Positions 1 to 22,684 of a stretch of 22,684 bases of DNA are shown here, one piece after another. The stretch lies in IMG/VR virus record IMGVR_UViG_3300033998_000168, positions 1 to 22,684 of that record; one strand, 5' to 3'. The stretch is from a virus. Position 1 is the stretch's first letter; each line of letters starts with the position of its first letter. The notes under the pieces are model-generated. The model made no database searches. It was not told where the DNA came from and saw nothing but the letters and a program-made list of their open reading frames with translations. A program made the position numbers and the translations under genes.

Positions 1-1
1 C

Positions 2-636: not shown

Positions 637-649
637 TACATGCTCTGCC

Positions 650-4484: not shown

Positions 4485-4486
4485 GC

Positions 4487-7336: not shown

Positions 7337-7351
7337 TAAAGGAGCCAAATC

Positions 7352-7726: not shown

Positions 7727-7738
7727 GGAGCCCAGACC

Positions 7739-8719
7739 ATGCAACTCAATGACTATACCATCACCGAGCTGACCGCCGCGATCAACGCCTTCCCTGTGCA
7801 GTGGGGGCTGATCAACGCTAGCGGCCTGTTTCGCAACCAGGGTGTGCGTACTCGCACGGTAACCATCGAGGAGCAGTCCGGCACGCTGGCGCTGCTGCCC
7901 GACCACGAGTGGGGCGGCGAAGGCACGGTGGCCAGCCGCATCAACCGCAACACCCGCAGCTTTGCCATCAAGCAGACGGTGCACGAAGATACCGTGCTGC
8001 CGGGCGACGTGCAGGATGTGCGCGGCTTTGGCATCGAGGGTCTGACCGATGTCAACGCCGAGGTCGCCCGCCGCCTGCAGCGCATGCGCGCGCGCCACGA
8101 CCAGACGCTGGAGTGGAAGAAGATGGGCGCGTTGAAGGGCATCGTCCAGTCTGGCGACGGCTCAACGCTGGCCAACCTGTTTACCGCCTTTGGCATCACG
8201 CAGGTGACGGTGGACTTCGTGCTGGGCACTTCCACCACCGACGTGCTTGGCAAGTGCGCCGCAGTGCTCAACCAGATCGAGGACAACCTGCAAGGCGACG
8301 TCATGACCGGCGTGCGCGCGCTGGTCAGCCCGGAGTTCTACTCCAAGCTGATCAACCACGCCAAGGTGCAGGACGCGTACAAGTACCACCAGGAGGCGGC
8401 CATGCGCCTCGGTACCGATATGCGCGGCGGCTTTGCCTTCGGCGGTATCGAGTTCGTCGAGTACCGGGCTTCGGTCAACGGCCAGCGCTTCATCGCGGCC
8501 AATGAAGGCCACGCCTTCCCCGTCGGCACGATGGACACCTTCGCCACCTACTTCGCCCCGGCGGACTTCAACGAGACCGTCAACACCCTGGGCGTGCCGT
8601 TTTACGCCAAGACCTGGGAGAAGGAAGGCGGGCGTGGTGTAGTAATCCACACCCAAAGTAACAGCCTGCCGCTTTGTCACCGCCCGGCAGTGCTGGTCAA
8701 ACTTATCACGAGTAACTGA
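7739..8719 (+). CDS. major capsid protein, lambda gpE-like
   Basis: A 326-residue HK97-fold shell subunit of the lambda gpE family. Family marks include the N-terminal YTITELTAAIN, the VRTRTVTIEEQSGTL strand, RNTRSFAIKQTVHEDTV, the RMRARHDQTLEW helix, a central GVRALVSPEFYSKL and the C-terminal block with AFPVGTMDTFATYFAPAD. ATG 7739 follows TAAGGAG. It lies straight after the decoration gene, as E follows D in lambda. The most abundant virion protein, assembled with the scaffold encoded at 6977 and processed by the upstream protease. Confidence 0.92.
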   Translation: MQLNDYTITELTAAINAFPVQWGLINASGLFRNQGVRTRTVTIEEQSGTLALLPDHEWGGEGTVASRINRNTRSFAIKQTVHEDTVLPGDVQDVRGFGIEGLTDVNAEVARRLQRMRARHDQTLEWKKMGALKGIVQSGDGSTLANLFTAFGITQVTVDFVLGTSTTDVLGKCAAVLNQIEDNLQGDVMTGVRALVSPEFYSKLINHAKVQDAYKYHQEAAMRLGTDMRGGFAFGGIEFVEYRASVNGQRFIAANEGHAFPVGTMDTFATYFAPADFNETVNTLGVPFYAKTWEKEGGRGVVIHTQSNSLPLCHRPAVLVKLITSN

Positions 8720-8725
8720 TACGCC

Positions 8726-8944
8726 ATGTTGATCCTGATGACCGCCCCCGCCATGCTTGGTCGCCAGTCGCTAGCTGCTGGTGTCCTGGCCGATGTGCCA
8801 GACGACGCCGCGCAGCGGCTGATTGCGTCGGGCGTGGCGAAGCAAGCAGGCGTCGCGCCGCAGACGGCGGACCAGGCGTTGGACGACGCGCAGGACGCAC
8901 CGCCCACTGCGCCGCGCCGCAAAAAGGCGAGGACTGACACGTGA
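8726..8944 (+). CDS. small protein after capsid (gp35/FI-position), unknown
   Basis: A 72-residue protein located where Mu gp35 and lambda FI sit. The N-terminal half (LAAGVLADVPDDAAQRLIASGVA) matches a short motif common in small phage head proteins; the C-terminal half is a Pro/Ala/Asp-rich linker ending in a basic PRRKKAR cluster. It probably helps head completion or DNA packaging. Start ATG 8726 has only a weak ribosome site, and its TGA overlaps the GTG of the next gene (GTGA). Function is not determined by the sequence. Confidence 0.68.
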   Translation: MLILMTAPAMLGRQSLAAGVLADVPDDAAQRLIASGVAKQAGVAPQTADQALDDAQDAPPTAPRRKKARTDT

Positions 8945-9360
8945 GCGTCATCACCCGCGCCGAGCTGGAGCAGCGCTTGTCCCCGCAGGACATTGCACAA
9001 CTGGCCGACCTCGAGGGCGATAGCATCGAGGCCGTCGGCTTTGTCGATGCTTGCCTGGCGGATGCCGAGTCGGAGGCGATGGCGTGGGTACGGAGCGTGG
9101 GCCAGGTGCCCGATCCCGCGCCCGAGGTCTTACGGCGCGTGGTGTGCGACATTGCGCGCTACAACCTCTACCAGCGCCACTTGCCGGAGGAGCATCCGGT
9201 GGTGGTGGCGTACCGGCAGGCCCTTGAGACGCTCAAGGGCATCGCCGCTGGGCGTATCGTCATCACCACGCCACCGGAGGGCGCGGTGGTTGGTGCGCCG
9301 GTTTGTTATGCGCCCGCACGTGTCATGACTGACGATGCCTTGCAGGGGATGGGGCCATGA
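8941..9360 (+). CDS. head-tail connector, Mu gp36-like (DUF1320)
   Basis: A 139-residue protein with the DUF1320 pattern: SVITRAELEQRLS at the N-terminus, a helical core with DACLADAESEAMAWV, then LRRVVCDIARYNLYQRH and a helix containing YRQALETLKGIAAGRI. Proteins of this family form the adaptor ring beneath the portal. GTG start overlaps the upstream stop, and its own TGA overlaps ATG 9357. The position between capsid and gpG-like genes is conserved in Mu-type heads. Confidence 0.85.
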   Translation: MSVITRAELEQRLSPQDIAQLADLEGDSIEAVGFVDACLADAESEAMAWVRSVGQVPDPAPEVLRRVVCDIARYNLYQRHLPEEHPVVVAYRQALETLKGIAAGRIVITTPPEGAVVGAPVCYAPARVMTDDALQGMGP

Positions 9361-9863
9361 TCACCATTGATATCGACGACCGCGAGGTGCTCTCCGAGCT
9401 CTCCGCCTTGCGCGACCGCATGGCCAACATGCTACCGGCGATGCGTGTTGTAGCGCAGGTCATGCGGTCGGACGTCCTGGACCGCTTCGAGCGGCAAAAC
9501 ACGCCCGACGGCACGCCGTGGAAGCCACTCTCGCTGGCGGCTATCTTGCTACGCGCACGTCGCCACGCTCCCTCGGGGCTTAAACGGCGCCGCGCGCAGA
9601 CTTTGGCGCGCTTTGCGGCCGGGGCAAAGGCGTTGATCGATACCGGCGTGCTGCGCAACAGCATCCAGGTGGTGCAGGTCGGCCGTGACATGGCTACCGT
9701 CGGCACGCGTATTGAGTACGCCGCTCTCCACCAGTTCGGCGGCCGCACTGGCAGGGGGCACTCGACGACCGTCCCGGCGCGGCCGTACATGGGGCTGTCG
9801 CGTGAGGGCAAGCGGGAGTTGCTGGAGGTGATCCGCCAGCACATTGCGGGAGGGCTGCGGTGA
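9357..9863 (+). CDS. virion morphogenesis / tail completion protein, Mu gpG-like
   Basis: A 168-residue protein of the phage virion-morphogenesis (gpG/tail completion S) family. Features: N-terminal RDRMANMLPAMRVVAQVMRS helix, the NTPDGTPWKPLS stretch, KALIDTGVLRNSI, and IEYAALHQFGGR followed by VPARPYMGLS, which are the family's best-kept blocks. It helps seal the head or start the tail connection. In Mu, gene G follows gp30 directly; here it comes after the gp36-like gene, one of several order changes. ATG overlaps upstream TGA (ATGA). Confidence 0.87.
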   Translation: MITIDIDDREVLSELSALRDRMANMLPAMRVVAQVMRSDVLDRFERQNTPDGTPWKPLSLAAILLRARRHAPSGLKRRRAQTLARFAAGAKALIDTGVLRNSIQVVQVGRDMATVGTRIEYAALHQFGGRTGRGHSTTVPARPYMGLSREGKRELLEVIRQHIAGGLR

Positions 9864-10291
9864 TTGGTGCCATCGAAGCCTCGATTCTCGCGCGCCTGAC
9901 CGACCGGCTCACCGGTTGGCGCATTGCGGCAATGGCTGATGTGGATCTCGCCCGCCAGCAGGGCGGATCGGCGCAGCCAGCGCTCTATTTAGCATTCGGC
10001 GGCATTGAGACACTGGACGCCGCTGGGCGTGGCGCCGCGCAACGCGTGGATGTCGCGTTCGTCGCCGTCCTCGTCGCCCGCCATGCGCAGGGCGCGGCGC
10101 GTGGTGCGAGTGCAGCGCGTGGCGCGTTGGCGCTGTTTGATGACGTGTTTTCCGCGCTCGCCGGATTCCAGCCGACCGGCGCAACTGGACCGCTGCGCCT
10201 TACCGGCGCAGGCCCCGCCGAATACGAGCCGCCGACGTTCTGGCTGCCGGTGGAGTTCTCATGCAGCACCGTCCTAAAGGGGGCGCCATGA
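9860..10291 (+). CDS. Mu gp37-like tail/connector protein (DUF1834-type)
   Basis: A 143-residue protein. The N-terminus MIGAIEASILARLTD followed by W-R is typical of gp37-like proteins, and the core carries alternating strands (PALYLAFGGIETLD, RVDVAFVAVLVAR) and a helix rich in Ala. These act as tail terminators or joining proteins. GTG start overlaps the gpG stop (GTGA) and follows GGGAGG (9848-9853). It is followed in ATGA overlap by a 41-codon gene, as in Mu where short gp38 comes next. Family call moderate. Confidence 0.72.
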   Translation: MIGAIEASILARLTDRLTGWRIAAMADVDLARQQGGSAQPALYLAFGGIETLDAAGRGAAQRVDVAFVAVLVARHAQGAARGASAARGALALFDDVFSALAGFQPTGATGPLRLTGAGPAEYEPPTFWLPVEFSCSTVLKGAP

Positions 10292-10413
10292 TCATCGAGC
10301 GCATGCAACCGCACACCCATGCCGGTATCCTGCATTCGCCAGGCCGCCGTATTGACCCATCAGACGGCGCCGCCCGCGCCGTTGAACCCGAGAAACCCAC
10401 CCGCAAGGAGTGA
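10288..10413 (+). CDS. 41-residue protein (gp38-position), unknown
   Basis: Small gene missed by a length cut-off: ATG 10288 overlaps the stop of the gp37-like gene (ATGA), and TGA 10413 lies three bases before the tail-tube start. The product has an N-terminal MIIERMQ, a THAGILHSPGRRID motif and a charged C-terminus (PEKPTRKE). The HAG...PG..ID arrangement recalls short proteins found beside tail-tube genes (gp38/DUF2635 position), but similarity is weak. Codon composition fits its neighbours. Role unknown. Confidence 0.55.
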   Translation: MIIERMQPHTHAGILHSPGRRIDPSDGAARAVEPEKPTRKE

Positions 10414-10416
10414 CCC

Positions 10417-11163
10417 ATGGCAATCGATACGCAGTATTTCTCATTTCAGGGCATTGTAACCCTCGGAACCGCCGGAGAAAACGCCATCGAGGAGTATGAG
10501 GTCGGCAACTGCCCGAACCTCAGTATTGAGCTCGCGGTGGAGACCATCGAGCACACCGAGAGCTGGTCCGGCCAGCGCATGACTGACCTGCGCCTCACCA
10601 AGGCAAAGAAGGCCAGCGTCAAGATGACCCTGGAGAGTTTCGATCTGGACAATCTCGCCCTCGGCCTCTACGGCACGCCGGCCACGCGCGCGGCGGGCAC
10701 CGTGACCGCCGAGGAACTGGGCACAGTGCAGGCTGGCAAGATCTACCCGCTGGCCAACCCAATGGGCGTCTCCAATGTGGTGATCAAAGACGGGTCGGAC
10801 GCCACGGTACCGGCGGCTAAATACGAGCTTGACGCCACCTTTGGCGTCATCAAGGTGCTGGACGTCGCCGGGACGACGATGCCGTGGAATGTGGACTACG
10901 CTTACGGCGCGGCGAAGAACCTGGTGATGTTCCTCACCAATCCGCCCGCACGCAAGCTCCGGTTGCGCGGCGTCAACACGGCCCAGAGCAACGCCCCGGT
11001 GCTCATCGAGCTTTACCGGGTGCAGTTCGATCCAATCAAAGACCTGGCGATGATCCAGGACGAACTGGGCCGCCTGGAATTTGAGGGCTCCGCGCTCGCA
11101 GACCCGACCAAGGCCAGCGACCCGGCGTTTGGGATGTTTGGGCGCGTGATGATGCTCTCGTAG
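10417..11163 (+). CDS. major tail tube protein
   Basis: A 248-residue protein between connector genes and the chaperone/tape-measure block, exactly where a siphovirus tube gene lies. It is beta-rich: YFSFQGIVTLGTAG at the start, KKASVKMTLESFD in the middle, and a C-terminal VLIELYRVQFDPIKDLAM followed by GRLEFEGSALAD, like the tube-domain strands of lambda gpV-type proteins. Hexameric rings stack around the tape measure. No contractile sheath gene (Mu L) is present beside it. ATG 10417 follows AAGGAG (10405-10410). Confidence 0.85.
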   Translation: MAIDTQYFSFQGIVTLGTAGENAIEEYEVGNCPNLSIELAVETIEHTESWSGQRMTDLRLTKAKKASVKMTLESFDLDNLALGLYGTPATRAAGTVTAEELGTVQAGKIYPLANPMGVSNVVIKDGSDATVPAAKYELDATFGVIKVLDVAGTTMPWNVDYAYGAAKNLVMFLTNPPARKLRLRGVNTAQSNAPVLIELYRVQFDPIKDLAMIQDELGRLEFEGSALADPTKASDPAFGMFGRVMMLS

Positions 11164-11178
11164 CGTAGTGGAGGCACT

Positions 11179-11553
11179 ATGGGCGACCTAGAGCGCATCG
11201 CGCCAACTCCACGCAAGATCACCGTCGCAGGGGAGGCCATTGAGGTCTCCCCGTTGCGGGTCCGCGACCTCCCCGCGTTTTTGCGGGCCTGCGAGCCGCT
11301 AGTGGCGGCCATTGCCGCAGGAGATCTGCGGTCTGCTCTGATGCACCATGCCGACACCCTGATCACCGTCACGGCCATCGGGGCTGGGGTGGACCGGGCA
11401 TGGCTGGAGGAGCAGACCCCAGACGTGCTCATCGACCTGGCGGCTCAGGTGGTGGAGGCCAATGTCGATTTTTTCGTCCGGTCCATCCTGCCGCGGATCC
11501 AGGACGCGGCGCGGAGGGTGACCGCAGCCATCGATGGTGGCACCGCTGGGTGA
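11179..11553 (+). CDS. tail assembly chaperone-like protein
   Basis: A 124-residue mostly helical protein directly before the tape measure's short partner gene. N-terminal strand KITVAGEAIEVSPLRVRDL is followed by helices with FLRACEPLVAAI and ALMHHADTLITVTAIG, a pattern frequent in tail assembly chaperones (lambda gpG analogues). They coat the tape measure before tube assembly. The stop overlaps a GTG of the 65-residue gene in the -1 frame. Position and fold impression carry the call; no sequence family is certain. Confidence 0.65.
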   Translation: MGDLERIAPTPRKITVAGEAIEVSPLRVRDLPAFLRACEPLVAAIAAGDLRSALMHHADTLITVTAIGAGVDRAWLEEQTPDVLIDLAAQVVEANVDFFVRSILPRIQDAARRVTAAIDGGTAG

Positions 11554-11747
11554 CCGGGCTGGTCATGGCAGGCTATAGCTACGAGGCAGTGATGGACATG
11601 CCATGGACGGATGCTAGAGACTTTTGGGACTGCGTGCTCGAGGAGCGCCGGGCTAGGTGGATAGACATGGCCGCGGCCATGCGGCTGGCCCATGCATCCC
11701 AGGAGGATTGGGAGCGCGTCGTGCGGGAGGTGCGCGGTGGAAAATAA
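11550..11747 (+). CDS. small tail chaperone partner (gpT/GT-position)
   Basis: A 65-residue protein whose GTG overlaps the previous TGA (GTGA); an in-frame ATG at 11565 is an alternative. It is helical and Trp-rich (PWTDARDFWDCVLEERRARW, then EDWERVVREV). It occupies the place of lambda gpT, which is made as an extension of gpG by -1 frameshifting. The frame is open upstream in the -1 frame, but the overlap zone (GCTGGGTGACC) has no canonical slippery heptamer, so reinitiation is favoured. It overlaps the start of the tape-measure gene by 11 bases. Confidence 0.65.
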   Translation: MTGLVMAGYSYEAVMDMPWTDARDFWDCVLEERRARWIDMAAAMRLAHASQEDWERVVREVRGGK

Positions 11748-14700
11748 AATCGCCATCAAGATCGTGGCCGACACTGCTGCGGCCAAGCGCGGCATCGCGT
11801 CCATCACCGAGGAGCTGCGCAAGATCGAGCCTGCCGCAGCCGGGGCAGCCCAGGACATCGAGGAGCTGGGCAGCCGCCTGGAGCGGCTCAAGGCAGCATC
11901 CAAGCTCGATGCTGCCCGCGACATCCTGGGCGTGCGGTCGCTGCGGTCCGGGCAGCGGGAGATCCAGCGGGTGCAGGCTGCCTTTGCCCGGCTGCGGGAC
12001 TCGGGCAAGGCATCGGCCCAGGAGCTCGGCGCTGCCTGGATAGCCATGCAGGACCGCATCGCGGAGCTCCAGGGGCGCATCTCGGGCATCCCTGCGGCAA
12101 TCCAGGCAGTGCAAGGCAGCATCGTCCGCCTCGTGGCAGGCACAGCCGCCTTTGGCCTGGCTGCGCGGGAGGCAGTCGTCTTTGAGGATGCCCTGGTGGA
12201 CCTCCAGCGGGCCGCAAACCTCAGCCGCGATGATGCTGCAGCCATGGGTGAGGAGCTGCAGGACCTCGCCCAGAGTCTGGGCATGTCCTCCACCGCAGTG
12301 GTGGGCCTGGCCACGTCAGCAGCCAAGACAGGCGTGGCCAAGGATGAGCTCCTAGCCTTTACCCGGGTCGTGGCCCAGGCTGCCATGGCATGGGACATGA
12401 TGCCCGAGGAGGCCGGCCAGGCCATGGCCAAGCTCAAGAACGTCCTCGGCCTAGGCGTTCAGGACATGGAGGCCTTCGCCGGGGCTATCAACGAGCTAGC
12501 TGACAATGCCGCAGCCTCGGAACGCGAGATCGTCGAGGCCCTCAAGCTAGGGGGGGCGTCAGGGCGGCAGTTTGGCCTCACTGCCAAGGAGACGGCTGCG
12601 CTTGCCACAACTTTTATTTCCCTGGGCGCATCCGCCGAGCAAGCTGGCACAGCCATGCGCACCATGCTGGGCCGTCTGCGCCTGGCCACCAGCGGCGCCG
12701 GCGGGGCAGGCAAGGCCCTGCGGTCGGTGGTGGGCGACACCAAGGCCTTTGCCCGGGCCATGGCCACAGACGCCAAGGCGGCGCTCATGCAGTTTCTCTC
12801 GGCCCTCAGCCAGATGACCGCGCCGGAGCGCATGCGGGTGCTGCGGGATATCTTCCAGGAGGGCCTGGACACCGAGAATATCGCCAAGCTGGCCTCGGAT
12901 GCCGACAAGCTGGCCGAGGCCCTGCGCCATGCAGGCAAGAGCGACGAGGAGCTGGTGCGATCCCTGCGGGACCTTACCAGCCTCAAGCTGGGCACTACCC
13001 AGGCAGAGATAAACCGCCTAGGCGCAGCCTGGCGCAATGCGGGCGAGGCCGTGGGGCGGCTCTTTTTGCCTTTTATCCGCGCCGCAGCCGTGGCCCTATC
13101 GGCAGTGGCGCAGGCCATTGATGCCCTGGCGACGACCTTCCCGGCCCTCTCCCGCCTGGTCGCTTTCGGAGCCCTCTTGGCCGCTGCCTGGCGGCCGCTG
13201 CAGATGCTCTGGGGCCTGATCCTCGTGGTGGGCGGGCGGCTCAAGGGCGTGCTGCAGATGGTATCTGGAGCAGCCAGTGCCCTGGCCACGGCCGTGCGCA
13301 TGGGGACGCTATCCTTTGCCGCGCTGCGGACCGCCATGGGTGGGCTCCTGGGTCCCATCGGGCTTGTGGTGACGGGTCTGTCCCTGCTCTGGGATGCCTG
13401 GCATCTCCTCTCCTCGGACAGTGATGACCCGCTGGCAGCCAAGCGCCAGGCCCTCTCGGAGGTGTCGGGTGCGCTGCGCGGTGTCGGAGAGGCGGCCAAG
13501 GCGGCCAAGACCCAGATCCAGGCCAGCATGGAGGAGGCCGCTGCGCCCATCGATGCACTCAAGGCCGACTATAAGGCAGCCACCGACAGCATCATCGCCG
13601 ACCTGGCCCGCAGGCAGCAGGCCATTGAGCTCCAGTCCTCCCTCCAGCAGGCTATCATCGAGGCCTCCAGCCTCTCCCAGCGGGACGCCATCGCGGCACT
13701 GGCCGAAGAGACCCGCCGGGCCGAGCAGGCCAAGGTGGATGCCGTGGCCCAGGCTGGGCGGCAGATGGAGGAGACCTGGCAGCGGACCTACGGCCAGGCT
13801 ATCGAGATCGCCCGGGCTGCTGGCATGGATACTACAGCCCTGGAGGCCGAGGCCCTGCAGGCCAAGATGGCCATCTACCAGCAGCAGGAGGCCGCCTACC
13901 GGGCCACAGTGGATAGGCTCATCGCCGAGGAGCGGCGCTTTACCGAGGCCGCCAAGCGCGCCGAGGAGGACCGGGCGCTTTTGCGCATGAGCGTCCAGGA
14001 TCGCATCCGGGCCCTGCAGCAGCGTACCATGAGCGAGGCCGAGGCCTATGCCGACCGGGTGCGGCAGATTGAGGAGAAGCTCGCCCAGGCCGACATGGCC
14101 CGGGCCGCAGGCAATTTTGACCAAGCCCGCAGGCTCGCCGAGGACGCCATGCGCTTGGCCGAGTCCAACGCTAGGGCCGTCACCCAAACGGTGGAGCAGG
14201 GTGGCCGCACGGTCACCCAGACCATCATCTCCGAGGCCCAGGCTGCCCAGACCGCCATGGGCCAGATCGCCCGGGCCGGGCAGATCGCCGACCAGGCCAT
14301 CGGGGCCTTTGGCCAGACCATGCAGCAGCAGGCTGCTGCTGCCGCCCAGGCCCTCCAAGAGCCCATGAGCCGTCTGCAGCAGATCCGCCAGGCCATCGAG
14401 GGCCTCGCAGGCCAGCAGGCCCAGGCCATCGCCGTCAAGCTGGATGCGGACGACGCTGCAGCCAAGGCCAGCATCGAGCGGCTCAAGCAGCTGGCCGCGG
14501 CGCAGAAGGTAGTGGTCCAGCTGGAGGCGGACACTAAAGCCGCCCAAGAGGCCATTGCCGAGCTGCGTAGCGACCCAGAAAATCAACAGCTCCAGATGCA
14601 GGCCCGCATCGCCACCGACCGGGTGCAGGACGACATCCCGGCAGTCCAGCAGGCCCTCGAGGCAGCCGGGCTCCAGATCCCGGCCGAGCTGGACGGGGAA

Positions 14701-15225
14701 AAGCTCGCGGCATCCATCGAGCAGATGCGAGCCCAAGTGGAGCAGCCCACCCAGAGCGAGCACACCATCTTGGACAACGCCAAGAAGGTCCTGGACCGGA
14801 TCCTCTCCCTGGACGGCAAGGACACCTCCAGCACCCACACCATCTACGTGCGCGAGGTACAGCGGCGGGCCATGGGCGGGCTGGTGCAGCGACTGGCTGC
14901 CGGTGGCCAGGCATGGCGGCGCATCGTCGGCCGGGTGTCTGGACCTGGCACCAGCACGTCGGACTCCATCCCGGCCATGCTCTCGGCCGGGGAGTATGTG
15001 GTGCGGGCCGCAGCGGTGCGCAAGTACGGCGTCGGCCTCTTGGAGGCCCTCAACCGCGGCCGCTTGGAGCTCCACAGCCACCAGACCATCCAGCAGGGGC
15101 CACAGCGCGAGATCCGCCTGACCATCCAGGGGCCGCGGGGCCAGGCGGCCAGGGTGAGCACCACCAGAGATGAGGCGCGGCGGCTCGTGCGCCTGCTCAC
15201 AGCCGCGGGGGTGTCGGTAGCATGA
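11737..15225 (+). CDS. tail tape measure protein
   Basis: A 1162-residue protein setting tail length, predicted about 170 nm by the usual 0.15 nm per residue. Start is GTG 11737 after GGAGG (11727-11731); the in-frame ATG 11692 lies too far inside the previous gene. Residues about 149-320 are the TP901-type PhageMin_Tail domain (FEDALVDLQRAANLS, LATSAAKTGVAKDE, FISLGASAEQAGTAMR). Hydrophobic stretches at about 450-500 and 525-558 are the membrane-inserting part. About 565-1020 is long Ala/Gln/Glu coiled coil. The C-terminus carries the classic SIPAMLSAGEYVVRA block near 1075. Arginine codon choice leans to CGG, unlike the CGC-rich head genes. Confidence 0.95.
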   Translation: MENKIAIKIVADTAAAKRGIASITEELRKIEPAAAGAAQDIEELGSRLERLKAASKLDAARDILGVRSLRSGQREIQRVQAAFARLRDSGKASAQELGAAWIAMQDRIAELQGRISGIPAAIQAVQGSIVRLVAGTAAFGLAAREAVVFEDALVDLQRAANLSRDDAAAMGEELQDLAQSLGMSSTAVVGLATSAAKTGVAKDELLAFTRVVAQAAMAWDMMPEEAGQAMAKLKNVLGLGVQDMEAFAGAINELADNAAASEREIVEALKLGGASGRQFGLTAKETAALATTFISLGASAEQAGTAMRTMLGRLRLATSGAGGAGKALRSVVGDTKAFARAMATDAKAALMQFLSALSQMTAPERMRVLRDIFQEGLDTENIAKLASDADKLAEALRHAGKSDEELVRSLRDLTSLKLGTTQAEINRLGAAWRNAGEAVGRLFLPFIRAAAVALSAVAQAIDALATTFPALSRLVAFGALLAAAWRPLQMLWGLILVVGGRLKGVLQMVSGAASALATAVRMGTLSFAALRTAMGGLLGPIGLVVTGLSLLWDAWHLLSSDSDDPLAAKRQALSEVSGALRGVGEAAKAAKTQIQASMEEAAAPIDALKADYKAATDSIIADLARRQQAIELQSSLQQAIIEASSLSQRDAIAALAEETRRAEQAKVDAVAQAGRQMEETWQRTYGQAIEIARAAGMDTTALEAEALQAKMAIYQQQEAAYRATVDRLIAEERRFTEAAKRAEEDRALLRMSVQDRIRALQQRTMSEAEAYADRVRQIEEKLAQADMARAAGNFDQARRLAEDAMRLAESNARAVTQTVEQGGRTVTQTIISEAQAAQTAMGQIARAGQIADQAIGAFGQTMQQQAAAAAQALQEPMSRLQQIRQAIEGLAGQQAQAIAVKLDADDAAAKASIERLKQLAAAQKVVVQLEADTKAAQEAIAELRSDPENQQLQMQARIATDRVQDDIPAVQQALEAAGLQIPAELDGEKLAASIEQMRAQVEQPTQSEHTILDNAKKVLDRILSLDGKDTSSTHTIYVREVQRRAMGGLVQRLAAGGQAWRRIVGRVSGPGTSTSDSIPAMLSAGEYVVRAAAVRKYGVGLLEALNRGRLELHSHQTIQQGPQREIRLTIQGPRGQAARVSTTRDEARRLVRLLTAAGVSVA

Positions 15226-15581
15226 AGAGACTTGCAGGCATTACCCTCATGGACTCCATCGAGATGGAGACCGCCTATCAGTCGGCGGGCGTGTCCACGG
15301 TGCACCGGGTGGCCCTGGACGGCTCGCTGGTGACCTTTTCCGGCCCGGCCCTGCGGCAGATCGTGCTGCGGGCTGGGGACGACTATGGCTGGGTCCGCGC
15401 CGAGGATGCCGAGGCCCTGGTGCTCCTCTCCCAGACCACGACGAGCACGACCCTGGAGTGGCTGGGTGCCGCCATCCCGGTGCGCTGGGACCACTCATCT
15501 GGCCCGGCAGTCCAGCTCTCGCCGCTCTATCCTGGTGCGCAGTGGTGCACCGGGACCATCGCACTCATACGGGAGGACTAG
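15222..15581 (+). CDS. tail protein after tape measure, unknown
   Basis: A 119-residue beta-rich protein with ATG overlapping the tape-measure stop (ATGA). No signal or membrane segment. Notable pieces: MKRLAGITLMDSIEMET at the N-terminus, ALRQIVLRAGDDYGWVRAED in the centre and a Trp-containing C-terminus with YPGAQWCTGTI. In siphoviruses this slot usually holds a distal tail or tip component. Followed immediately by a TAG-ATG junction with GGGAGG as ribosome site for the next gene. No family recognised. Confidence 0.65.
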   Translation: MKRLAGITLMDSIEMETAYQSAGVSTVHRVALDGSLVTFSGPALRQIVLRAGDDYGWVRAEDAEALVLLSQTTTSTTLEWLGAAIPVRWDHSSGPAVQLSPLYPGAQWCTGTIALIRED

Positions 15582-16547
15582 ATGCCCATCTATACTGCAG
15601 ACATCGTCTATCGGCCTTCGCGCAACCTCGACGGGACCGGCGGCATATCTGGGTCCACCATCCAGGCCGTCAAAAACGCCCTTTTCCCCGACGTCACCAG
15701 CTCTCAGCGGGCCAGCGGGCACAAGATCGGCCGCAAGGTGTGGGTCCACTTTGCCTCTGCGGACGGCTCTGTGGCCCACCAGATCCGCATCTATGCCACC
15801 CCGACCTCTGCCGGGGACGCCCTGGTGCTGCGCCCTGTGGGCACGGACCGCGTGGGCGAGGCATGGAGCGAGACCGATGCCCAGCGCATCTATGGGGCAG
15901 GAGTCTTGTCTGCTGGCGTGCCGTCCGGCGCGTCCACCCTCCAGGTGGCGGCCGAGTCGGACTACACGGCCATAGGATTTGTGGCAGGCGACGTCATTTG
16001 CGTGAGCGCCAAGGCCTCTCCGACGGATGCCACGGGCGCTGAGGAGTTTGCCACCATCGCCTCAGTGACCCGCTCAGGCAGCGCAGTAACCATCACCACA
16101 TCCCAGCCCCTTCAGCTCGCCTATGCCAGCGGGTCCCGGGTGTCGGCCTGCATGTCTGTGGCCACGGCCGAGCCCAGCGTGGAGCAGGTAAGCGCCTCGT
16201 CTGGCGTGACCGTGGACCTGGGCAAGATCTCACTTGCCACCACATCCATCGCCGAGGACACCTGGACGGTGTCCTTTACCTCGGCCACGGACTACACGGT
16301 GACAGGAGAGGCCCTTGGGGCTGCGGGTGCCGGTACGGTGGGCGCAGACTATGTGGGCACAGGGGTGGCCGCCGGGCTCAAGATCCAGGCCGGGGCCTTT
16401 GGTGGGACCATCGCCTCGGGCGATACCGTGGTCTTGCGCACCATGGCCGCGGCTGTGCCGGTGTGGGTCATCCGCCAGGTACCGCCTGGAGCTGCGGCCT
16501 TTGCCCAGAGCGCTGGCTATCTCATGGTGACCTGCGAGAGCGCCTAG
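15582..16547 (+). CDS. tail tip/distal tail protein, unknown
   Basis: A 321-residue protein rich in Ala, Thr, Ser, Val and Gly with alternating short strands, as expected for an extracellular beta-sandwich tip protein. The first third (YTADIVYRPSRNL, KVWVHFASADGSVAHQIRI) differs from a repetitive Ser/Thr/Ala middle (SAGVPSGASTLQVAAESDYTA onwards). ATG 15582 sits six bases after GGGAGG (15571-15576). Placed between the small post-tape gene and a second large unknown tail gene. It may correspond to the tail-tip protein of transposable siphoviruses such as those of the B3/D3112 type, but this is by position only. Confidence 0.65.
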   Translation: MPIYTADIVYRPSRNLDGTGGISGSTIQAVKNALFPDVTSSQRASGHKIGRKVWVHFASADGSVAHQIRIYATPTSAGDALVLRPVGTDRVGEAWSETDAQRIYGAGVLSAGVPSGASTLQVAAESDYTAIGFVAGDVICVSAKASPTDATGAEEFATIASVTRSGSAVTITTSQPLQLAYASGSRVSACMSVATAEPSVEQVSASSGVTVDLGKISLATTSIAEDTWTVSFTSATDYTVTGEALGAAGAGTVGADYVGTGVAAGLKIQAGAFGGTIASGDTVVLRTMAAAVPVWVIRQVPPGAAAFAQSAGYLMVTCESA

Positions 16548-16549
16548 CC

Positions 16550-17608
16550 ATGCCTGCCAGCTACCAGCACGCATCAGCCCGGAGCGAGGCCACAGGCAGC
16601 CTCTGGGATGCATCTATCCGCTGGGAGATCGACGAGAGCCAGAGCCGCAATCCGCAGCCGCGGATCAACTGGTGGCGGGCACTCCTCGAAAAAAAGAATG
16701 CACCCTACTCCTCCGGCCCGGACTGGCCCATCTACACGCCCGACGAGCCGGGGTTGCTGGTGGTGCGCATCTATGGTGACGGCCCCTATGATGTGCTCAT
16801 CGATTCCCCAGAGGTGACCGGTGGGGCATCTGGGGTGCGCATCGAGGGCTCACCCTGGGAGAGCTATGCGGCCCAGCGCTACGTGCCGTGCATCCGCTCC
16901 ACCTATGCCGAGACCGTGCCCATGGAGCGCATCGAGTGGCGGGGCGAGACCAGCCGCACCACCCAGGCCGAGCCCGACGGGGCGGTGACGGTCCTCTATA
17001 GCACCGACATGCGCGGTGCAGACGGTACAGCCGCAGACGTGCGGGAGATGGAGCCAGGGGTGTGGGTGGCTGACCGGCCGACGTATGGCACCATGCTGGT
17101 GCGCTACGGCCGCAGGGTGCACGAGCTCCGTATTGAGTACGAGTATTTTCCGCAGGGGTGGGAAAGCGGCCTCATCGAAGGCGCCATCAAGGACATGATC
17201 GACGGCGACATCGTCAACTACACCTCGCCGCGGCCAGAGCTGTGCCGCTCGGTGCCGCTGTGGTACAAGATCGACTACACCCAGCTCAACCGCCACCCGT
17301 TGGTCATCCTGGTGCGCGATGAGCTGCGGCCGCACATCCAGGACATCATCACCGCCGACCGGTGGCGGGAGCACAAGGCGTCAGCCCAGCGCAGCATTCG
17401 GCGCATCGATGACGAGCCTGAGCAGCAGAGCGGAGCAGCGACACTGCCGTCGCTGCTTACAGAGGTGAGCAGGGAGACAACGGTCGATATCCAGGACACA
17501 GACTGTGGAAGCATAAGATACGTCCGCGTGACAAAGATGACGTTTGAGTATGCAGACGAGATCAATCCAAACAACAAAAAACAGATAGTGATGGAGTTTG
17601 TAGCATAG
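16550..17608 (+). CDS. tail tip protein, unknown, with AT-rich 3' end
   Basis: A 352-residue protein starting at ATG 16550, two bases after the previous stop; the frame opens earlier (16463) but that part shadows the upstream gene. Visible features: acidic Trp-rich N-terminus (WDASIRWEIDES), GLLVVRIYGDGPYDVLIDSP, and a helical C-terminal half with GLIEGAIKDMIDGDIVNY. From about base 17,450 the codons become AT-rich while the frame continues to the TAG, so the last 50 residues look acquired with the following block. Ends in TAGTG overlap with the next gene. No family recognised; position suggests a baseplate or tip component. Confidence 0.65.
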   Translation: MPASYQHASARSEATGSLWDASIRWEIDESQSRNPQPRINWWRALLEKKNAPYSSGPDWPIYTPDEPGLLVVRIYGDGPYDVLIDSPEVTGGASGVRIEGSPWESYAAQRYVPCIRSTYAETVPMERIEWRGETSRTTQAEPDGAVTVLYSTDMRGADGTAADVREMEPGVWVADRPTYGTMLVRYGRRVHELRIEYEYFPQGWESGLIEGAIKDMIDGDIVNYTSPRPELCRSVPLWYKIDYTQLNRHPLVILVRDELRPHIQDIITADRWREHKASAQRSIRRIDDEPEQQSGAATLPSLLTEVSRETTVDIQDTDCGSIRYVRVTKMTFEYADEINPNNKKQIVMEFVA

Positions 17609-18360
17609 TGCCGGTTGCAACCTATTTGCACGAAGTCACATATAGCGCATGGCTTTCTTTCGAGGAGCCAAACCCATTTGGACACCTTCGCCCGCATATT
17701 ATTGGAGGCATAGCGATAGTTCCGCTTGGGACCATCGCCATGATAACAGGCCCGGGATATGACGGCACATATAATGAGGCAAAAGAATACAACATTTATA
17801 TCAACGCAGACGGCCAGGTATGCGTTGATTTTGTAAGAAACGTTATGCACAGGTATTGGGAAAATATTTTCACAGACCTAAACCGCAACACTCTCTACTC
17901 ATATCAAAGTTTTTCTGTTGTTGGATATTATCCTTACGCAGATGTTGCCGTAAACTATTTTGGATCATATAATCCGGTGCTGCTTGGGCTAGGGAAGTAT
18001 ACTATTGGCACAACATACAGCTATTACGAAGAATATCAAGGGCCAGGGGTCCCCTACGGATGGTCCTCGAGGGTTTTCAGGGTGCAATATCCATTTCGCA
18101 TTGGCATCCTAAAAAGGGGCAGGGATTGGTGGCGGTGGAGAGAAGTTGCCAGCGTGCCGCATACTGCCGGGACTGTTTATTTTGTAGACGGGTCATCATT
18201 GGCTAATGGCGTTATTCTGATCAAGCAGTATGGGATAACAAACACGCCTCCTCTTTATCATGAGAATGACTACTCATACTTCTACATAAAGCTATATTCA
18301 ACCCACGCATACTGCCCAATAACAGACGAAGTGCGAGAGATTTTTGTCGCCGATTTATAG
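17608..18360 (+). CDS. tyrosine-rich tail-tip protein, unknown (candidate receptor binding)
   Basis: A 250-residue protein with 29 tyrosines, many paired or alternating with Ser/Asn (GYYPYADVAVNYF, YSYYEEYQ, DYSYFYIKLYS). GTG start overlaps the previous TAG. The whole gene is AT-rich against high-GC neighbours and uses codons such as TAT, ATA and AAA freely. No signal peptide or clear membrane segment. Aromatic-rich surfaces are common in carbohydrate-binding proteins, and adjacency to the repeat fibre points to host recognition or fibre attachment. Family not recognised; an anti-host accessory gene (moron) is the alternative. Confidence 0.65.
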   Translation: MPVATYLHEVTYSAWLSFEEPNPFGHLRPHIIGGIAIVPLGTIAMITGPGYDGTYNEAKEYNIYINADGQVCVDFVRNVMHRYWENIFTDLNRNTLYSYQSFSVVGYYPYADVAVNYFGSYNPVLLGLGKYTIGTTYSYYEEYQGPGVPYGWSSRVFRVQYPFRIGILKRGRDWWRWREVASVPHTAGTVYFVDGSSLANGVILIKQYGITNTPPLYHENDYSYFYIKLYSTHAYCPITDEVREIFVADL

Positions 18361-18372
18361 GAGCAAGCAAAG

Positions 18373-19755
18373 ATGAAAGCCGGAATGCTCAATATGTTTT
18401 CGGTGCGGCTTGTTGGTAACCTGGAGCCGGGTGCAGAAACGATAGTTGTGTCTGGATCGTCCATAGACTCATATAGTGTCTTGCAGGCCCCTTTCTACCT
18501 TACTGCCGACATCCCAGGGTCGCCAGTCTTGAGCTGTGCAAGGATGCAAGATTGGACTGATGGATTGGCAACCATTGGACTAACAGCCGCCTGGACAGGT
18601 CAGACGATACCAGAAGGCACCGACCTGCATATGCGCGTATGTGCCGAGCTGCTCTATCGTCTATCAAACGTCAGCCCCGCGAGCGGATCTATCGACGTGA
18701 GTTATCACATCCCGACGTCTGGGCCGGAAGGCGCAATAGATTATGTGGCAGTCGGAGAAGGGTGTTGGGCTGAGAGCGACAGCGTAGCTATAGGCAAGGG
18801 CGCGTATGCGTCGGCTAAAGGTATTGCCATAGGCAAAAACTCGTATGCTGACGGCGAGAGCATTGGGATTGGCGATGCTGATGCAAACGGCAGCGGAACT
18901 GTCGCTATTGGCAAAGGGTGCCAAACGGTGCAAAACGGATCTATAGCCATCGGCAATGGTGCAACAGGGTATGGGGAGGGGAGTGTCGGCATCGGAAAAA
19001 ACGCAAACGCGTCCTCACAGCGGTGCATAAGCGTTGGCCTGGACGCATACTCCTATGATGATAGCGTTGCGATCGGCAACGGCGCAAACAGCTCCGGATC
19101 GCGCGGCGTCAGCATAGGCGTGGCAGCGAACGCATATGGGTATGATGGCATCGCGATCGGCCGGTCAGCGGTAACCTACAACTACAGCATCGCCATCGGA
19201 TGCCTGTCAGAGGCGCAAGGGGAATATGGCATATCGATTGGGAGCGGCAATCCAAATAATTGGGCGCATGCTATCGCCATTGGAGATGGGGCAAGCCCGG
19301 GCACTTACTGTGTTGCCGACGTGCGCGCCCTGTTTGCACTGCCAAATATTTCAACAGACCCAGCCCCAAGAAGCTCCAATGATTACGTTATTCGGCACAG
19401 GACTGCGCCGCAAATCGTACTCGTTACCAAGCCGCTGTCGCTTGTTTCTCCGGCTGGAAGTGAGTTTATTCAGCTTCCTCCTGGACTGCGATTTTTCGTG
19501 ACAAGCATTGAGGCAATCAAGATTTCGCAATATCCATGGACTGGTGTGCCTAAAATATCGGTGGGGACCAGCTCAACCGACAAAACATCTATCCTCCCCC
19601 CAAGCGATTTTGACGTAACCCAACAATATCAGCGCGTTGTGTTCGCACCGATCGGATCTGTCGGCGTGGAGTCTATATATGTGGACGTGCCAACGGTTTG
19701 CTCTGGGTCTGGGCAGGCAAAAGTTGTGCTGCGTGGGTTTTTGCTGGCTGTATAG
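18373..19755 (+). CDS. tail fibre with YadA-head-type repeats
   Basis: A 460-residue protein. Residues 1-124 would attach to the tail; 125-310 carry about 14 copies of a 13-14 residue unit of the form (V/I)(A/S/G)IG followed by a variable loop, the hallmark of the left-handed beta-roll head of YadA-type trimeric adhesins; 311-460 is a unique beta-rich tip (SAGEF-like SPAGSEFIQLPPG, then VFAPIGSVGVESIYV). There is no signal peptide, stalk or C-terminal membrane anchor, so it is not an autotransporter but a phage fibre that borrows the adhesin fold. Trimer formation and receptor binding are inferred. ATG 18373 lies nine bases after AGGAG. AT-rich like its upstream neighbour. Confidence 0.82.
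   Translation: MKAGMLNMFSVRLVGNLEPGAETIVVSGSSIDSYSVLQAPFYLTADIPGSPVLSCARMQDWTDGLATIGLTAAWTGQTIPEGTDLHMRVCAELLYRLSNVSPASGSIDVSYHIPTSGPEGAIDYVAVGEGCWAESDSVAIGKGAYASAKGIAIGKNSYADGESIGIGDADANGSGTVAIGKGCQTVQNGSIAIGNGATGYGEGSVGIGKNANASSQRCISVGLDAYSYDDSVAIGNGANSSGSRGVSIGVAANAYGYDGIAIGRSAVTYNYSIAIGCLSEAQGEYGISIGSGNPNNWAHAIAIGDGASPGTYCVADVRALFALPNISTDPAPRSSNDYVIRHRTAPQIVLVTKPLSLVSPAGSEFIQLPPGLRFFVTSIEAIKISQYPWTGVPKISVGTSSTDKTSILPPSDFDVTQQYQRVVFAPIGSVGVESIYVDVPTVCSGSGQAKVVLRGFLLAV
18745..19302 (+). repeat. YadA-head-type repeats in fibre gene (about 14 units of 39-42 bases)
   Basis: Protein-level repeat at residues 125-310 of the fibre. Each unit begins with VAIG, IAIG, VGIG, ISIG or a close variant and lasts 13 or 14 residues. 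The DNA copies are diverged, so this is an old array rather than a recent expansion. Confidence 0.85.
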
Positions 19756-19770
19756 AGCGCGGTATAGAGC

Positions 19771-21114
19771 ATGGGCCTTCTAAACCAGTGCAAAATTGGG
19801 TCTGTTACCATTGGGGATCTTTGTGGGCGGTTTGTTGACGCGCCCCGCCTGGAAATATCTTGGGGCCATGCCATGGCTCCATCTACCCTTGCCCTCTCCT
19901 GGGCCTGTGCCCTGCAGGCGCAGAGGCCCCTGCCGGTGACATGGGGAGCGGCCCTGGCAGCCAGCCGGGCTCTGGCCATGCAGTGGGCATCCACAGAGCC
20001 AGCCGCCAAGGCCCTGATGATGGAGTGGGGAGCGGCTGCGGCCTCAGTCTCGTCACTGCCGACGTCCTGGGGATACGACATGCCCGCCCAGGCGGCGCTA
20101 CCCATCTACTACGCCCTCCTGGGTGCCGTGGACTACACCGTGCCAGCGGCCACCATGACCGACGGCGTCACCACGTGGTCGCTCCTGGACGTGGAGATCA
20201 CCCAGGCGTCCACGTCCCCGGCATGGATGGCGTCAGTGACCACGGCCATGGCCCCGCCAGACATCGGCGAGGATGTGATCCTGCACATCGGGACGACGTC
20301 CTGGATGCTGCGGGTGGTGGACGTGTCGGCCTCGCGCATGTCGCCAGTGGATGGAGGCTGGATAGTGCGGGCGCAGTCGGCCTCGGCCGTGGAGCTGGCT
20401 GCCATCCCGGCAGAGAGTCGGCTCCTGCATAACGGCAGGGCCAGCGACGTGTGCGCTGCGCTCTGTGCCCCGTGGCCGCTGGCGTGGGGCGTGGAGGACT
20501 ACGACCTGGCCCCTCCAGCCATCGACAGCCTGGTGGGGATCTCCTGCCTGGATGCTGCGGCCCGCATCGCCTCCATCTCTGGGCGGCTCCTGTGTCTGCC
20601 CAGCGGAGTGCTTATGGTGCAGCCGCGAGAGATGCCCGCCAGACAAGCTCCAACATGCCTGGAGGCCACGCTAGACGGCGTGGGCATATCATCTGCCGTC
20701 CAGGGCGTGCGCGTGAGCTCCTGGGGCATCTCAGACAGCCTCACGGCCGAGGGCGATGGATATGCCAGGACGGTCTATGTATCCCTCTCGCCGCGCCGCG
20801 CTGTGGACCTGGTGGTGGAGATCGGCCAGGCTGGAACGCCAGTCTGGGAGGACCAGGAGATCATCGAGACCGTGGGCCTCATCGATGGCGTGGCCCAGGT
20901 GAGCGCGCCCATCTCGTCCATCCGCCAGGCCCGTGCTGGGGATGGGTCCCCTGTACAGGTCGGCTACTGGCCAGGGCAGACAGCCGTGTGGACCAGCACC
21001 CCGACGCATCTGCCTGTGACCATCATCTATACCACGGCCCGCATCGCCCTGCCGGTGACCCTGCCGCCTGGGGCGCATGCGGCGCACGTGCTCGTGGAGG
21101 ATATCGATGCCTGA
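19771..21114 (+). CDS. tail hub-like protein with N-terminal Trp repeats
   Basis: A 447-residue protein. Residues 27-114 form a strict 14-residue repeat in which each unit starts L-x-x-x-W-(G/A). Residues about 120-447 look like a tail hub: DYTVPAATMTDGVTTW, strands ending in WMLRVVDVSAS, a helix with CLDAAARIASISGRLLCL and SGVLMVQPRE, where hubs commonly carry a 'G.l.v.p' strand, and a C-terminal beta segment. Hubs sit at the tail tip and guide the tape measure out. The first 80-90 bases are AT-rich like the upstream block; after about 19,860 composition returns to GCC/CTC-rich. Start ATG 19771 has a weak ribosome site. Hub call is moderate. Confidence 0.7.
   Translation: MGLLNQCKIGSVTIGDLCGRFVDAPRLEISWGHAMAPSTLALSWACALQAQRPLPVTWGAALAASRALAMQWASTEPAAKALMMEWGAAAASVSSLPTSWGYDMPAQAALPIYYALLGAVDYTVPAATMTDGVTTWSLLDVEITQASTSPAWMASVTTAMAPPDIGEDVILHIGTTSWMLRVVDVSASRMSPVDGGWIVRAQSASAVELAAIPAESRLLHNGRASDVCAALCAPWPLAWGVEDYDLAPPAIDSLVGISCLDAAARIASISGRLLCLPSGVLMVQPREMPARQAPTCLEATLDGVGISSAVQGVRVSSWGISDSLTAEGDGYARTVYVSLSPRRAVDLVVEIGQAGTPVWEDQEIIETVGLIDGVAQVSAPISSIRQARAGDGSPVQVGYWPGQTAVWTSTPTHLPVTIIYTTARIALPVTLPPGAHAAHVLVEDIDA
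19849..20112 (+). repeat. 14-residue tryptophan repeat (42-base period)
   Basis: Tryptophans at residues 31, 44, 58, 72, 86 and 100, with a tyrosine at 114, each four residues after a leucine: LEISW, LALSW, LPVTW, LAMQW, LMMEW, LPTSW, LPIYY. Spacing is 13 then exactly 14 five times. Between them lie eight or nine small residues (A, S, P, Q). Confidence 0.85.
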
Positions 21115-21661
21115 CCGTATCACCGCATCTGTCGTGGTGGAGCTGGAGCAGCCTGGGGCGGCTGATGAGGCCCGGGGCCACCTCTCCGCCCAGGTGGACG
21201 ACCGCCCGGACGGGCTCAATGCCGGGCGCACGCAGTTTTACCGGGATGCCCCGGCATCTATGGCCCCGGGGTTTTTGGTCTGGCGTGCCGGGCTCTCCTC
21301 GGTGACCATCGAGGCCGTGCATGGCACCGTGTCTGCCGTGGGCCAGGCCAGCACCACACACAGCCGGGAAGTGGTGGAATATGCCCAGCCTGGTCAGACC
21401 GAGATCGAGGTCCAGCTCGATACGCCAGCCAGGAGCCTGCCCACCATGACCGTGGACTACGGGGCGTGGTCCATCCAGGCCGGCGGAGAGTATGCCGACG
21501 GCACCCTGCGCAGCGTGCGCTTGGTCCGGGCCACTGCCGACCAAGGCGGGTGGTGTGTGGTCAAGCTGGAGTGGACGGCCCAGGCCGACTGCTATCGCGT
21601 CATCCCGACATCAGGGGCTGAGTATGTCATGCTGCTGGTATCCGGCGCAGTGGAGGGCTAG
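21107..21661 (+). CDS. tail/baseplate protein, unknown
   Basis: A 184-residue beta-rich protein. Start ATG 21107 overlaps the hub stop by eight bases and follows GGAGG at about 21095-21099; upstream in-frame starts would shadow the hub gene. Sequence features: VVVELEQPGAADEARGHL, SVTIEAVHGTVSAVGQAST and a C-terminal strand pair WCVVKLEWTAQADCYRV. No signal or membrane segment. It travels with the hub and the next small gene as a tail-tip set, and reads like an accessory tip or carbohydrate-binding sandwich domain, but no family is identified. Confidence 0.65.
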   Translation: MPDRITASVVVELEQPGAADEARGHLSAQVDDRPDGLNAGRTQFYRDAPASMAPGFLVWRAGLSSVTIEAVHGTVSAVGQASTTHSREVVEYAQPGQTEIEVQLDTPARSLPTMTVDYGAWSIQAGGEYADGTLRSVRLVRATADQGGWCVVKLEWTAQADCYRVIPTSGAEYVMLLVSGAVEG

Positions 21662-21663
21662 CT

Positions 21664-21981
21664 ATGCATCGGGTGTCTATCTCCTCGTCTGCGCCGCCCT
21701 GGCGCGTGTCTGTGGGGCAGTCGCCATGGCAGGACCTCACCGAGCCGCTCCTGGCAGATGCCCCGCAGTCCATGTGGGCGTCCTATGCATCCGAGGCCCT
21801 GGCCGCATCGACGGCCCCCACCGCTACGGCCCATCTCCCCATCGACACCTCTATCCGTATCGGCGACAGGGTGGATCTCACCATCGACGGCGCCCCCGTC
21901 TCCGGCGTCGTGCAGACCGTCGAGCACGTCATCCGCGATGGGCAGGCCGTGACGAGGATCGAGGTGCGGGTGGTGGCATGA
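21664..21981 (+). CDS. small hub-associated beta-barrel protein
   Basis: A 105-residue protein starting two bases after the previous stop. The C-terminal half (IRIGDRVDLTIDGAPVSGVV, then VEHVIRDGQAVTRIEVRV) resembles the barrel that ends many tail hubs (gp27-like: 'G D x V ... G V V x x V E H'). It may therefore be a hub domain encoded as a separate gene. The N-terminal 40 residues are Trp/Ser/Pro-rich. Its TGA overlaps the ATG of the broken gene that follows (ATGA). Call is by pattern. Confidence 0.65.
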   Translation: MHRVSISSSAPPWRVSVGQSPWQDLTEPLLADAPQSMWASYASEALAASTAPTATAHLPIDTSIRIGDRVDLTIDGAPVSGVVQTVEHVIRDGQAVTRIEVRVVA

Positions 21982-21997
21982 GTGTTGGACAGTAGGC

Positions 21998-22022
21998 AAC
22001 TATCCGGCAGGGCCGGATAGTT
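21998..22022. repeat. perfect 10-bp inverted repeat (hairpin)
   Basis: AACTATCCGG, a five-base loop CAGGG, and CCGGATAGTT. It lies just after the amber codon of the broken gene. No T-run follows on either strand, so a classical terminator is unlikely. Confidence 0.7.
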
Positions 22023-22081
22023 ACCGATCTCCAGCTATCTCCAGAATGGGGGCAGCCCTTTGGCCTCCTCGATCGTACAGT

Positions 22082-22100
22082 GCGCCCGACAATCGGGCGC
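22082..22100. repeat. perfect 8-bp inverted repeat next to repeat block
   Basis: GCGCCCGA, loop CAA, TCGGGCGC, immediately before the 22-base direct repeats. It could be part of the mobile-element end, or chance in a coding remnant (it encodes part of VRPTIGR). Confidence 0.55.
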
Positions 22101-22185
22101 TAAAACCCCGCACAAAGTCCCACGCCAAGTGCAAAAAAGTCCCAGAATAAGCGAAAAATCGTCTCAGACTAAGTGCACCGTTACA
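22101..22185 (-). mobile_element. transposon-end-like block: four about 22-base direct repeats ending TTACA
   Basis: Units at 22101-22122, 22123-22144, 22145-22166 and 22167-22185. The first three are exactly 22 bases and end GTCCCA, GTCCCA and GTCTCA; the second, third and fourth share (C/T)AAG(T/C)G near their start. Read on the minus strand the block begins TGTAACGG and proceeds through the repeats, as in Tn7, Tn552 or Tn402-type ends, which begin TGT and carry several transposase-binding repeats of similar size. No transposase gene or opposite end is seen, and no 5-base target duplication was found (right flank CTGGG). Seen: repeats and terminus. Inferred: transposon origin. Confidence 0.5.
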
Positions 22186-22317
22186 CTGGGAATGGTGGTG
22201 GCCGAGCCAGGCGGAGCTGTCGGGCAGGTGGAAGATATTGCATGGCGCGCCACACCGGCGTATACGGAAGCGACCGCCACGGTGCGGACATATACAGCCA
22301 TGACCGCAGGGTAACAC

Positions 22318-22569
22318 ATGCCGCTCCGACCAGCCGACATCATCCCAGTACCACAGCGCATCGAGACGCTGGTGGGCACAGTGACGCAGACAGGCGGCGC
22401 CGGCGCAACCATCGAGCTGCGCCCCGGCTTATCGATCCGGGTCCAGGCGTCGGGCGTCGCGACAGGCCAGCGGGTGCTCGTGGCCGCACCGGGGGGCGAC
22501 GTGTCCAGAGCACAGGTGGTCGCGCCGCTTGTCGGCGAGCGTGGCAAAATGACACATGTCGCCGTGTAG
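22318..22569 (+). CDS. small beta-rich tail protein, unknown
   Basis: An 83-residue protein starting three bases after the end of the broken gene. Strand-like segments RIETLVGTVTQTG, ATIELRPGLSIRVQ and QRVLVAAPGGDV suggest a small barrel with a metal-independent SH3/OB look. The initiation region CAGGGTAACACATG is weak. Product lies just before a BppU-like baseplate gene, so a tail-tip or fibre-attachment role is plausible. No family recognised. Confidence 0.6.
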   Translation: MPLRPADIIPVPQRIETLVGTVTQTGGAGATIELRPGLSIRVQASGVATGQRVLVAAPGGDVSRAQVVAPLVGERGKMTHVAV

Positions 22570-22577
22570 GAGTGTAT

Positions 22578-22684
22578 ATGCACAAAGTACAAATATTTAG
22601 GGGTGATACGTGGCGCAGGACATGGGAGCTCAAGGCCCCGGACGGCACGCCCGTTGACCTCTCCGGTGCGACGGCCCGGCTCAT
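22578..22684 (+). CDS. baseplate/fibre-attachment protein, BppU N-terminal-like (3' partial)
   Basis: Starts at ATG 22578, five bases after AGGAG (22568-22572), and runs off the right edge after 35 codons. The visible N-terminus has the pattern FRGDTWRRTWELKAPDGTPV followed by DLSGATARL, which is characteristic of the N-terminal domain of BppU-type baseplate proteins (R/Q-GDT...W.lkd.dG.pvdLtGat). In siphoviruses these join receptor-binding proteins to the tail tip. Length and C-terminal domain cannot be seen. Confidence 0.7.
   Translation, partial: MHKVQIFRGDTWRRTWELKAPDGTPVDLSGATARL

Follow-up and report, generated by a model that had tools for sequence, protein, structure and literature searches.

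The repeat block near the right edge of the window (the whole 22,684-base stretch analysed here, which is a complete IMG/VR record) is almost certainly the right end of a Mu-like transposable phage, with three predicted transposase sites. We call the phage that carries this end phage A, and we call phage B the owner of window positions 1-11275 and 22186-22684. Matches to the contigs G001, L083 and L038 indicate that the window is phage B with about 8 kb of its tail genes replaced by the right arm of A, and as far as sequence comparison goes such a B/A hybrid is very probable. Taken as a whole, an A right end in a hybrid formed by insertion and then deletion is the best explanation and a highly likely one; that the two steps took place in this specific order is probable. 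The features of the window are as follows.

1-11275, + strand: left part of phage B, with HNH, TerS, TerL, Mor/C-like activator, Portal_Mu-family portal, minor head, protease, decoration, major capsid, connectors, major tail protein and the start of the tail chaperone (PHROG/Pfam)
10417-11163, + strand: major tail protein of B, phrog_807; 96% amino acid identity to L038, 32% to A's own major tail protein
11179-11553, + strand: hybrid tail assembly chaperone, phrog_1442, 124 aa, with a B N terminus fused in frame to an A C terminus and the ORF intact (from the junction sequences)
11260-11273, + strand: left junction, a 14-nt patch GTCCGCGACCTCCC (VRDLP codons) common to A, B and the window; the sequence resembles B before it and A after it
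11274-22185, + strand: right arm of A, with tape measure (11692-15225), tail-tip and fibre genes to 21981, and a non-coding end; 99.5% identical to G001
21995-22025, no strand: strong hairpin downstream of the final A gene, with stem ACTATCCGGC/GCCGGATAGT and without a clear T-run (z -4.6)
22082-22100, no strand: hairpin GCGCCCGA-caa-TCGGGCGC, close to the site array on its inner side (z -4.3)
22117-22138, - strand: R3, third predicted MuA-binding site, TTTTTTGCACTTGGCGTGGGAC (periodicity and end-site comparison)
22139-22160, - strand: R2, second predicted MuA-binding site, GATTTTTCGCTTATTCTGGGAC (periodicity and end-site comparison)
22161-22185, - strand: R1 with the terminus, TGTAACGGTGCACTTAGTCTGAGAC; phage A ends with base 22185
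22186-22190, + strand: CTGGG, the predicted target pentamer, which fits CYSRG; in the comparison, the empty B site reads CCGGG
22186-22314, + strand: 3′ remnant of the interrupted B gene, 96% identity; intact as a 183-aa ORF at L009:4446-4994
22318-22569, + strand: B gene of 83 aa directly downstream of the interrupted gene, 98% identical in L009
22578-22684, + strand: first part of the following B gene (MHKVQIFRGDTWRRTWELKAPDG...), truncated where the contig ends (L009 match)

The block is built from three 22-nt units, at 22117-22138, 22139-22160 and 22161-22182, which begin with GTCCCA, GTCCCA and GTCTCA on the + strand; an initial annotation of this DNA had counted four. That annotation was right to see ordered GTCCCA/GTCTCA repeats, which are real and non-random: the three-unit, 22-nt periodicity amounts to 46 matches, compared with a maximum of 38 in 200 Markov-simulated windows, and none of 5,000 local simulations reached 46. 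Tandem-repeat noise was rejected for the block, as simulated periodicity always fell below the observed 46 matches. After the third unit the + strand reads CCGTTACA and ends at 22185; read from 22185 on the minus strand, the last unit with its continuation into TTACA is TGTAACGG, giving a minus-strand terminus of 5′-TGT.

The owner of this end was identified through G001 (IMGVR_UViG_3300031260_000091, 29,476 bases, from another metagenome), a sister contig reached via a protein search with the product of a left-hand tail gene. Window positions 11260-22185 are 99.5% identical to G001 over 10,926 bases, and the identity stops exactly at 22185, past which the window reads CTGGGAATGG... and G001 reads AACACGATGT...; the same terminal base of A thus adjoins different flanks in the two contigs, as for an element inserted at varied sites. 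In a search of a viral collection with the exact right and left ends, G001 was the only match beyond the window. At its opposite end G001 encodes a full-length MuA as well as a MuB and a GemA protein, identified by profile matches. The MuA matches DDE_2 (3.5e-51), HTH_Tnp_Mu_1/2 and Mu-transpos_C and aligns along its full length with Mu A, all three catalytic residues (D269, D336 and E392) being matched; the MuB, of the target-ATPase type, matches Phage-MuB_C (1.2e-16) and phrog_296 (1.4e-79). None of these genes is in the window, for which the earlier remark that neither a transposase nor a second end lies nearby is correct. The full element sharing the tip, which the same annotation had suggested looking for, is found in G001, complete with MuA, MuB, GemA and a left end. 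Given the exact-base end of identity, the MuA and MuB genes on G001 and the matching left end, we take the block to be the right terminus of a transposable siphophage, Mu-like and about 29.2 kb long.

Phage A encodes a terminase, a portal, a protease and a major tail protein of its own, and the distance between its ends is short for a Mu-like phage. Its left arm is also present in G008, which is 99.9% identical to G001. The flanking pentamers beyond the two ends of G001 differ, CCGGA versus AACAC (L006:1-141; L007:14381-14476), and show no 5-bp target duplication, so this contig is not a simple intact prophage; it may be virion DNA with mixed flanks or a rearranged prophage. A phage-collection search with the right flank of G001 gave no match.

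The opposite end of A was located with a weight matrix built from the window's three units alone and scanned over G001 and its relatives. On the 29.5 kb of G001, the best score outside the right end, 23.3 bits, falls 116 nt inside the opposite end and is inverted, the next best being 11.4. The top two scores in L012 and in L013 are left-end-type sites, as is the top score in L015; the signal in L016 is weaker. L012 and L013 are 97% identical from the left tip inward and different outside, which defines the left terminus independently. The left terminus of A, TGTGCGGGATCAGATGATTTGAGAC, has TGAGAC 25 nt from the tip, the same distance as in the right terminus TGTAACGGTGCACTTAGTCTGAGAC. Left-end sites lie at 25, 85 and 137 in A and at 25, 110 and 162 in L012, L013 and L016, so that the gap between sites two and three is 52 nt in all four; the left ends of the three relatives start TGTGCG, and all four begin with TGT. 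The right-end sites of A end at 25, 47 and 69. Phage A therefore has defined termini with repeated predicted transposase sites at both ends, seen in the window and G001 for the right end and in G001 and the three relatives for the left. The L012 and L016 contigs stop before the right end is complete, and the right-end architecture is the one known from the window and G001.

The end of A resembles the right end of phage Mu (attR, R1-R3) in its three transposase-site repeats per end, 22-nt units and TG..CA termini. The likeness extends to a MuA-family transposase, with 40% identity over residues 163-594 and catalytic residues conserved, to its MuB partner and to a fitting target pentamer. Unlike in Mu, the site sequence is A's own (GCACTTNNNNTGRGAC-like), R1-R3 directly abut with a 22-nt period, and both termini are TGT/ACA. 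Mu's published MuA-site consensus reaches at best 15/19 in the block, a value also reached by chance in simulations, and the sites do not rise above background; because this consensus fails to single them out, the end assignment rests on the sister contig G001 instead. TGT/ACA termini are shared with the D3112 group, transposable phages whose genomes begin with TGT and end with ACA (PMC5977238). Mu-type transposition genes in a siphophage are likewise found in D3112/B3-like and RcapMu-like phages and in the roseobacter transposable siphophages vB_RhkS_P1 and vB_PeaS-P1, and the MuA proteins of Rhodovulum, Pelagibaca and Sinorhizobium phages are 42-47% identical to that of A. Phage A differs from the D3112/B3-like, RcapMu-like and roseobacter phages in its small size (~29.2 kb) and in its terminase and portal genes (L007:2898-5937), which run on the other strand from MuA and the tail genes.

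Both outer parts of the window belong to B. Positions 1029-11276 are 99.2% identical to L083 (IMGVR_UViG_3300034759_000073), which runs 3.7 kb past the window's head genes into B's own tail genes and is in turn 96.8% identical to L038 over 4.5 kb. At the other edge, positions 22186-22684 are 96-97% identical to L038/L009 (IMGVR_UViG_3300033998_000135), where the 183-aa gene continues uninterrupted at the position of the 22185/22186 junction; this is the empty site. The linkage of head to B tail comes from L083 and that of B tail to flank from L038, with the two overlapping by 4.5 kb. Since L083 and L038 link both outer parts to the B tail, these parts appear to form one phage, in order and orientation. 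The L038 strain has a different gene set upstream of the major tail protein, so B is better described as a lineage of mosaic strains. The left arm of A (G008) and the B head (L083) both occur in metagenome 3300034759. A search for further contigs with the interrupted B gene, aimed at the left transposition joint, found only the contig of L038.

Between these outer parts, the A segment takes the place of about 8.0 kb of B tail genes (reverse complement of L038, 2359-10346). At its left edge the crossover falls in the 14-nt patch within the chaperone gene. At its right edge the last base of A adjoins the pentamer CTGGG, in agreement with the 5′-CYSRG target preference of Mu (PMC7350765), and by its sequence the right junction, 22185/22186, is a transposition joint. 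Of A, the window contains the right end and no left transposition junction. The initial annotation placed the block inside a tail operon; tail genes do flank it on both sides, but those on the left and those on the right belong to separate phages, with the boundary at 22185/22186. Its suggestion of a remnant after deletion or a one-ended insertion fits the window well.

The following route would account for this arrangement. Phage A would have transposed into the B genome, whether resident as a prophage or present as co-infecting DNA, with a CYSRG-type pentamer in a tail-region gene as its target. The left joint, now lost, would have read as B sequence ending CTGGG/CCGGG, then TGTGCGGGATC. A composite of B plus 29 kb would have exceeded the capacity of a B-type capsid. 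The chaperone genes of B and the inserted A would have lain in direct orientation, and recombination between them at the 14-nt match could then have deleted the left 18.3 kb of A, with its transposase and head genes, together with 8.0 kb of B, about 26 kb in total. The net product would be B plus 2.9 kb, roughly the size of B; it would keep the B head and major tail protein, gain the A tape measure and tail tip, and lose most of the 183-aa gene. The right end of A would stay behind as a scar which, with no left end beside it, could not transpose alone. We infer both the route and the viability of the hybrid.

The same hybrid could have arisen along another path, in which an A virion with packaged B DNA replaced the B tail by double crossover in a B-bearing cell, homologous in the B flank and homeologous in the chaperone gene, with no full insertion of A in that copy of B. 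The product would be identical, and in Mu-like virions the right end is followed by packaged host DNA, from hundreds of bases up to 2-3 kb of it (PMC5977238). This path still requires an earlier insertion of A in another copy of B, plus two crossovers, and we regard it as unlikely, although its sequence outcome is the same as that of insertion and deletion and the window does not distinguish the two. More doubtful again is an ordinary mosaic Mu-like phage, with A early region, B-type head and A tail, that was inserted in or packaged with B DNA, so that 22186 onward would be 'host'. Target DNA does travel with transposable phages beyond their right end (PMC5977238), the window is without the far left, where an A early region could lie upstream, and it contains a Portal_Mu-family portal and a Mor-like activator gene. 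But the flank derives from the phage that also supplies the left part of the window, with matching orientation and the expected order downstream, and independent contigs connect both outer parts to the tail genes native to B; this reading would also call for one more recombination and for a target hit by coincidence. MuA, moreover, is undetected among relatives of the head module: a DDE_2 search in larger contigs related to the B head genes (44, 41 and 32 kb) found none, whereas the same search was positive in G001, G002, G006 and Mu, and the 41-kb relative encodes a tyrosine integrase. The reading of the window as one Mu-like phage with a host flank was dropped once L083 joined the head genes to the B tail.

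An assembly or amplification chimera of A and B seems very improbable. The hybrid is seen in one contig only, and A and B share just 14 nt at the left junction, where an amplification chimera keeps a small probability; yet both junctions would have to be artefacts, when the right one falls at the exact terminal base of A, adjoins a CYSRG pentamer and has no shared repeat, and the left one is in frame and colinear, with 14 nt being below usual assembly k-mers. Least credible, and hardly tenable, is the idea that the block is the tip of a Tn7/Tn552/Tn402-type transposon or a set of iterons or regulatory repeats of the resident phage, both proposed in the initial annotation. MuA belongs to the same DDE superfamily as TnsB and TniA, which explains the likeness in layout to such tips, with a TG..CA terminus and spaced sites of about 22 nt. 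That annotation had the kind right, for the repeats look like transposase sites marking the tip of an element with a DDE transposase, but not the family: the element bearing the end encodes MuA, MuB and phage head and tail genes on G001 rather than a TnsB/TniA-type set, and DNA-level searches of phage and plasmid collections with the block gave nothing useful and no similarity. A CRISPR-associated transposon end was also considered and rejected, there being no such genes. As for a resident iteron array, the A-free B contigs L038 and L083 are without the block, which is shared with A to its exact last base, and this leaves the array unsupported. Conservation of the block at the same site in divergent phages was looked for as well; L038 has the site without it.

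A close parallel to a B/A hybrid formed by insertion and then deletion comes from the laboratory. Hybrids of Mu with lambda and with other phages are formed there by Mu insertion plus deletion; in these hybrids a Mu-type end is joined, as in the window, to the DNA of another phage, and deletion restores genome size, as proposed here. The hybrid described here differs in being natural and metagenomic, and in that its deletion join lies in orthologous tail genes with the frame kept open, which amounts to a swap of the tail module. A search of the open-access literature, which is no proof of absence, found no natural hybrid of such a type described.

Phage genomes are mosaic, yet the joining of modules is seldom seen as it happened. 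In the window the two joints are resolved to the single base: a transposition joint at a Mu-like end, and an in-frame crossover of 14 nt within an orthologous tail gene. They suggest a two-step route to exchanging most of a tail, by insertion and then by a deletion that also restores genome length. Phage contigs that end or switch at TGT/ACA repeat arrays may be hybrids, and deserve caution. More tentatively, transposable phages might act as natural tail-module donors that jump into co-resident integrase-type temperate phages, with deletion between orthologous tail genes fixing viable hybrids that bear a transposon-end scar. If this conjecture is true, such scars would be searchable as signatures of this form of phage mosaicism.

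Several smaller differences were observed along the window. In the A arm, 32 of the ~55 differences from G001 over 10.9 kb cluster at 17500-18999, in fibre-like genes, and the cluster takes in the start of the gene for a YadA-head-repeat protein (18373-19755); this concentration marks 17500-18999 as a fast-changing region. In the B head, the sister contig L082 has an extra ParB/DNA-methyltransferase-like gene between the small and large terminase (L082:534-2401 versus window 1319-1629), and the N-terminal half of its terminase differs from that of the window, another module exchange. At the right edge, the window at 22684 and the separate B contig at base 1 of L038 (the end of L009) stop at the identical base (...GGCCCGGCTCAT), perhaps a branching point that both share in assembly, at a variable or repeated downstream gene.
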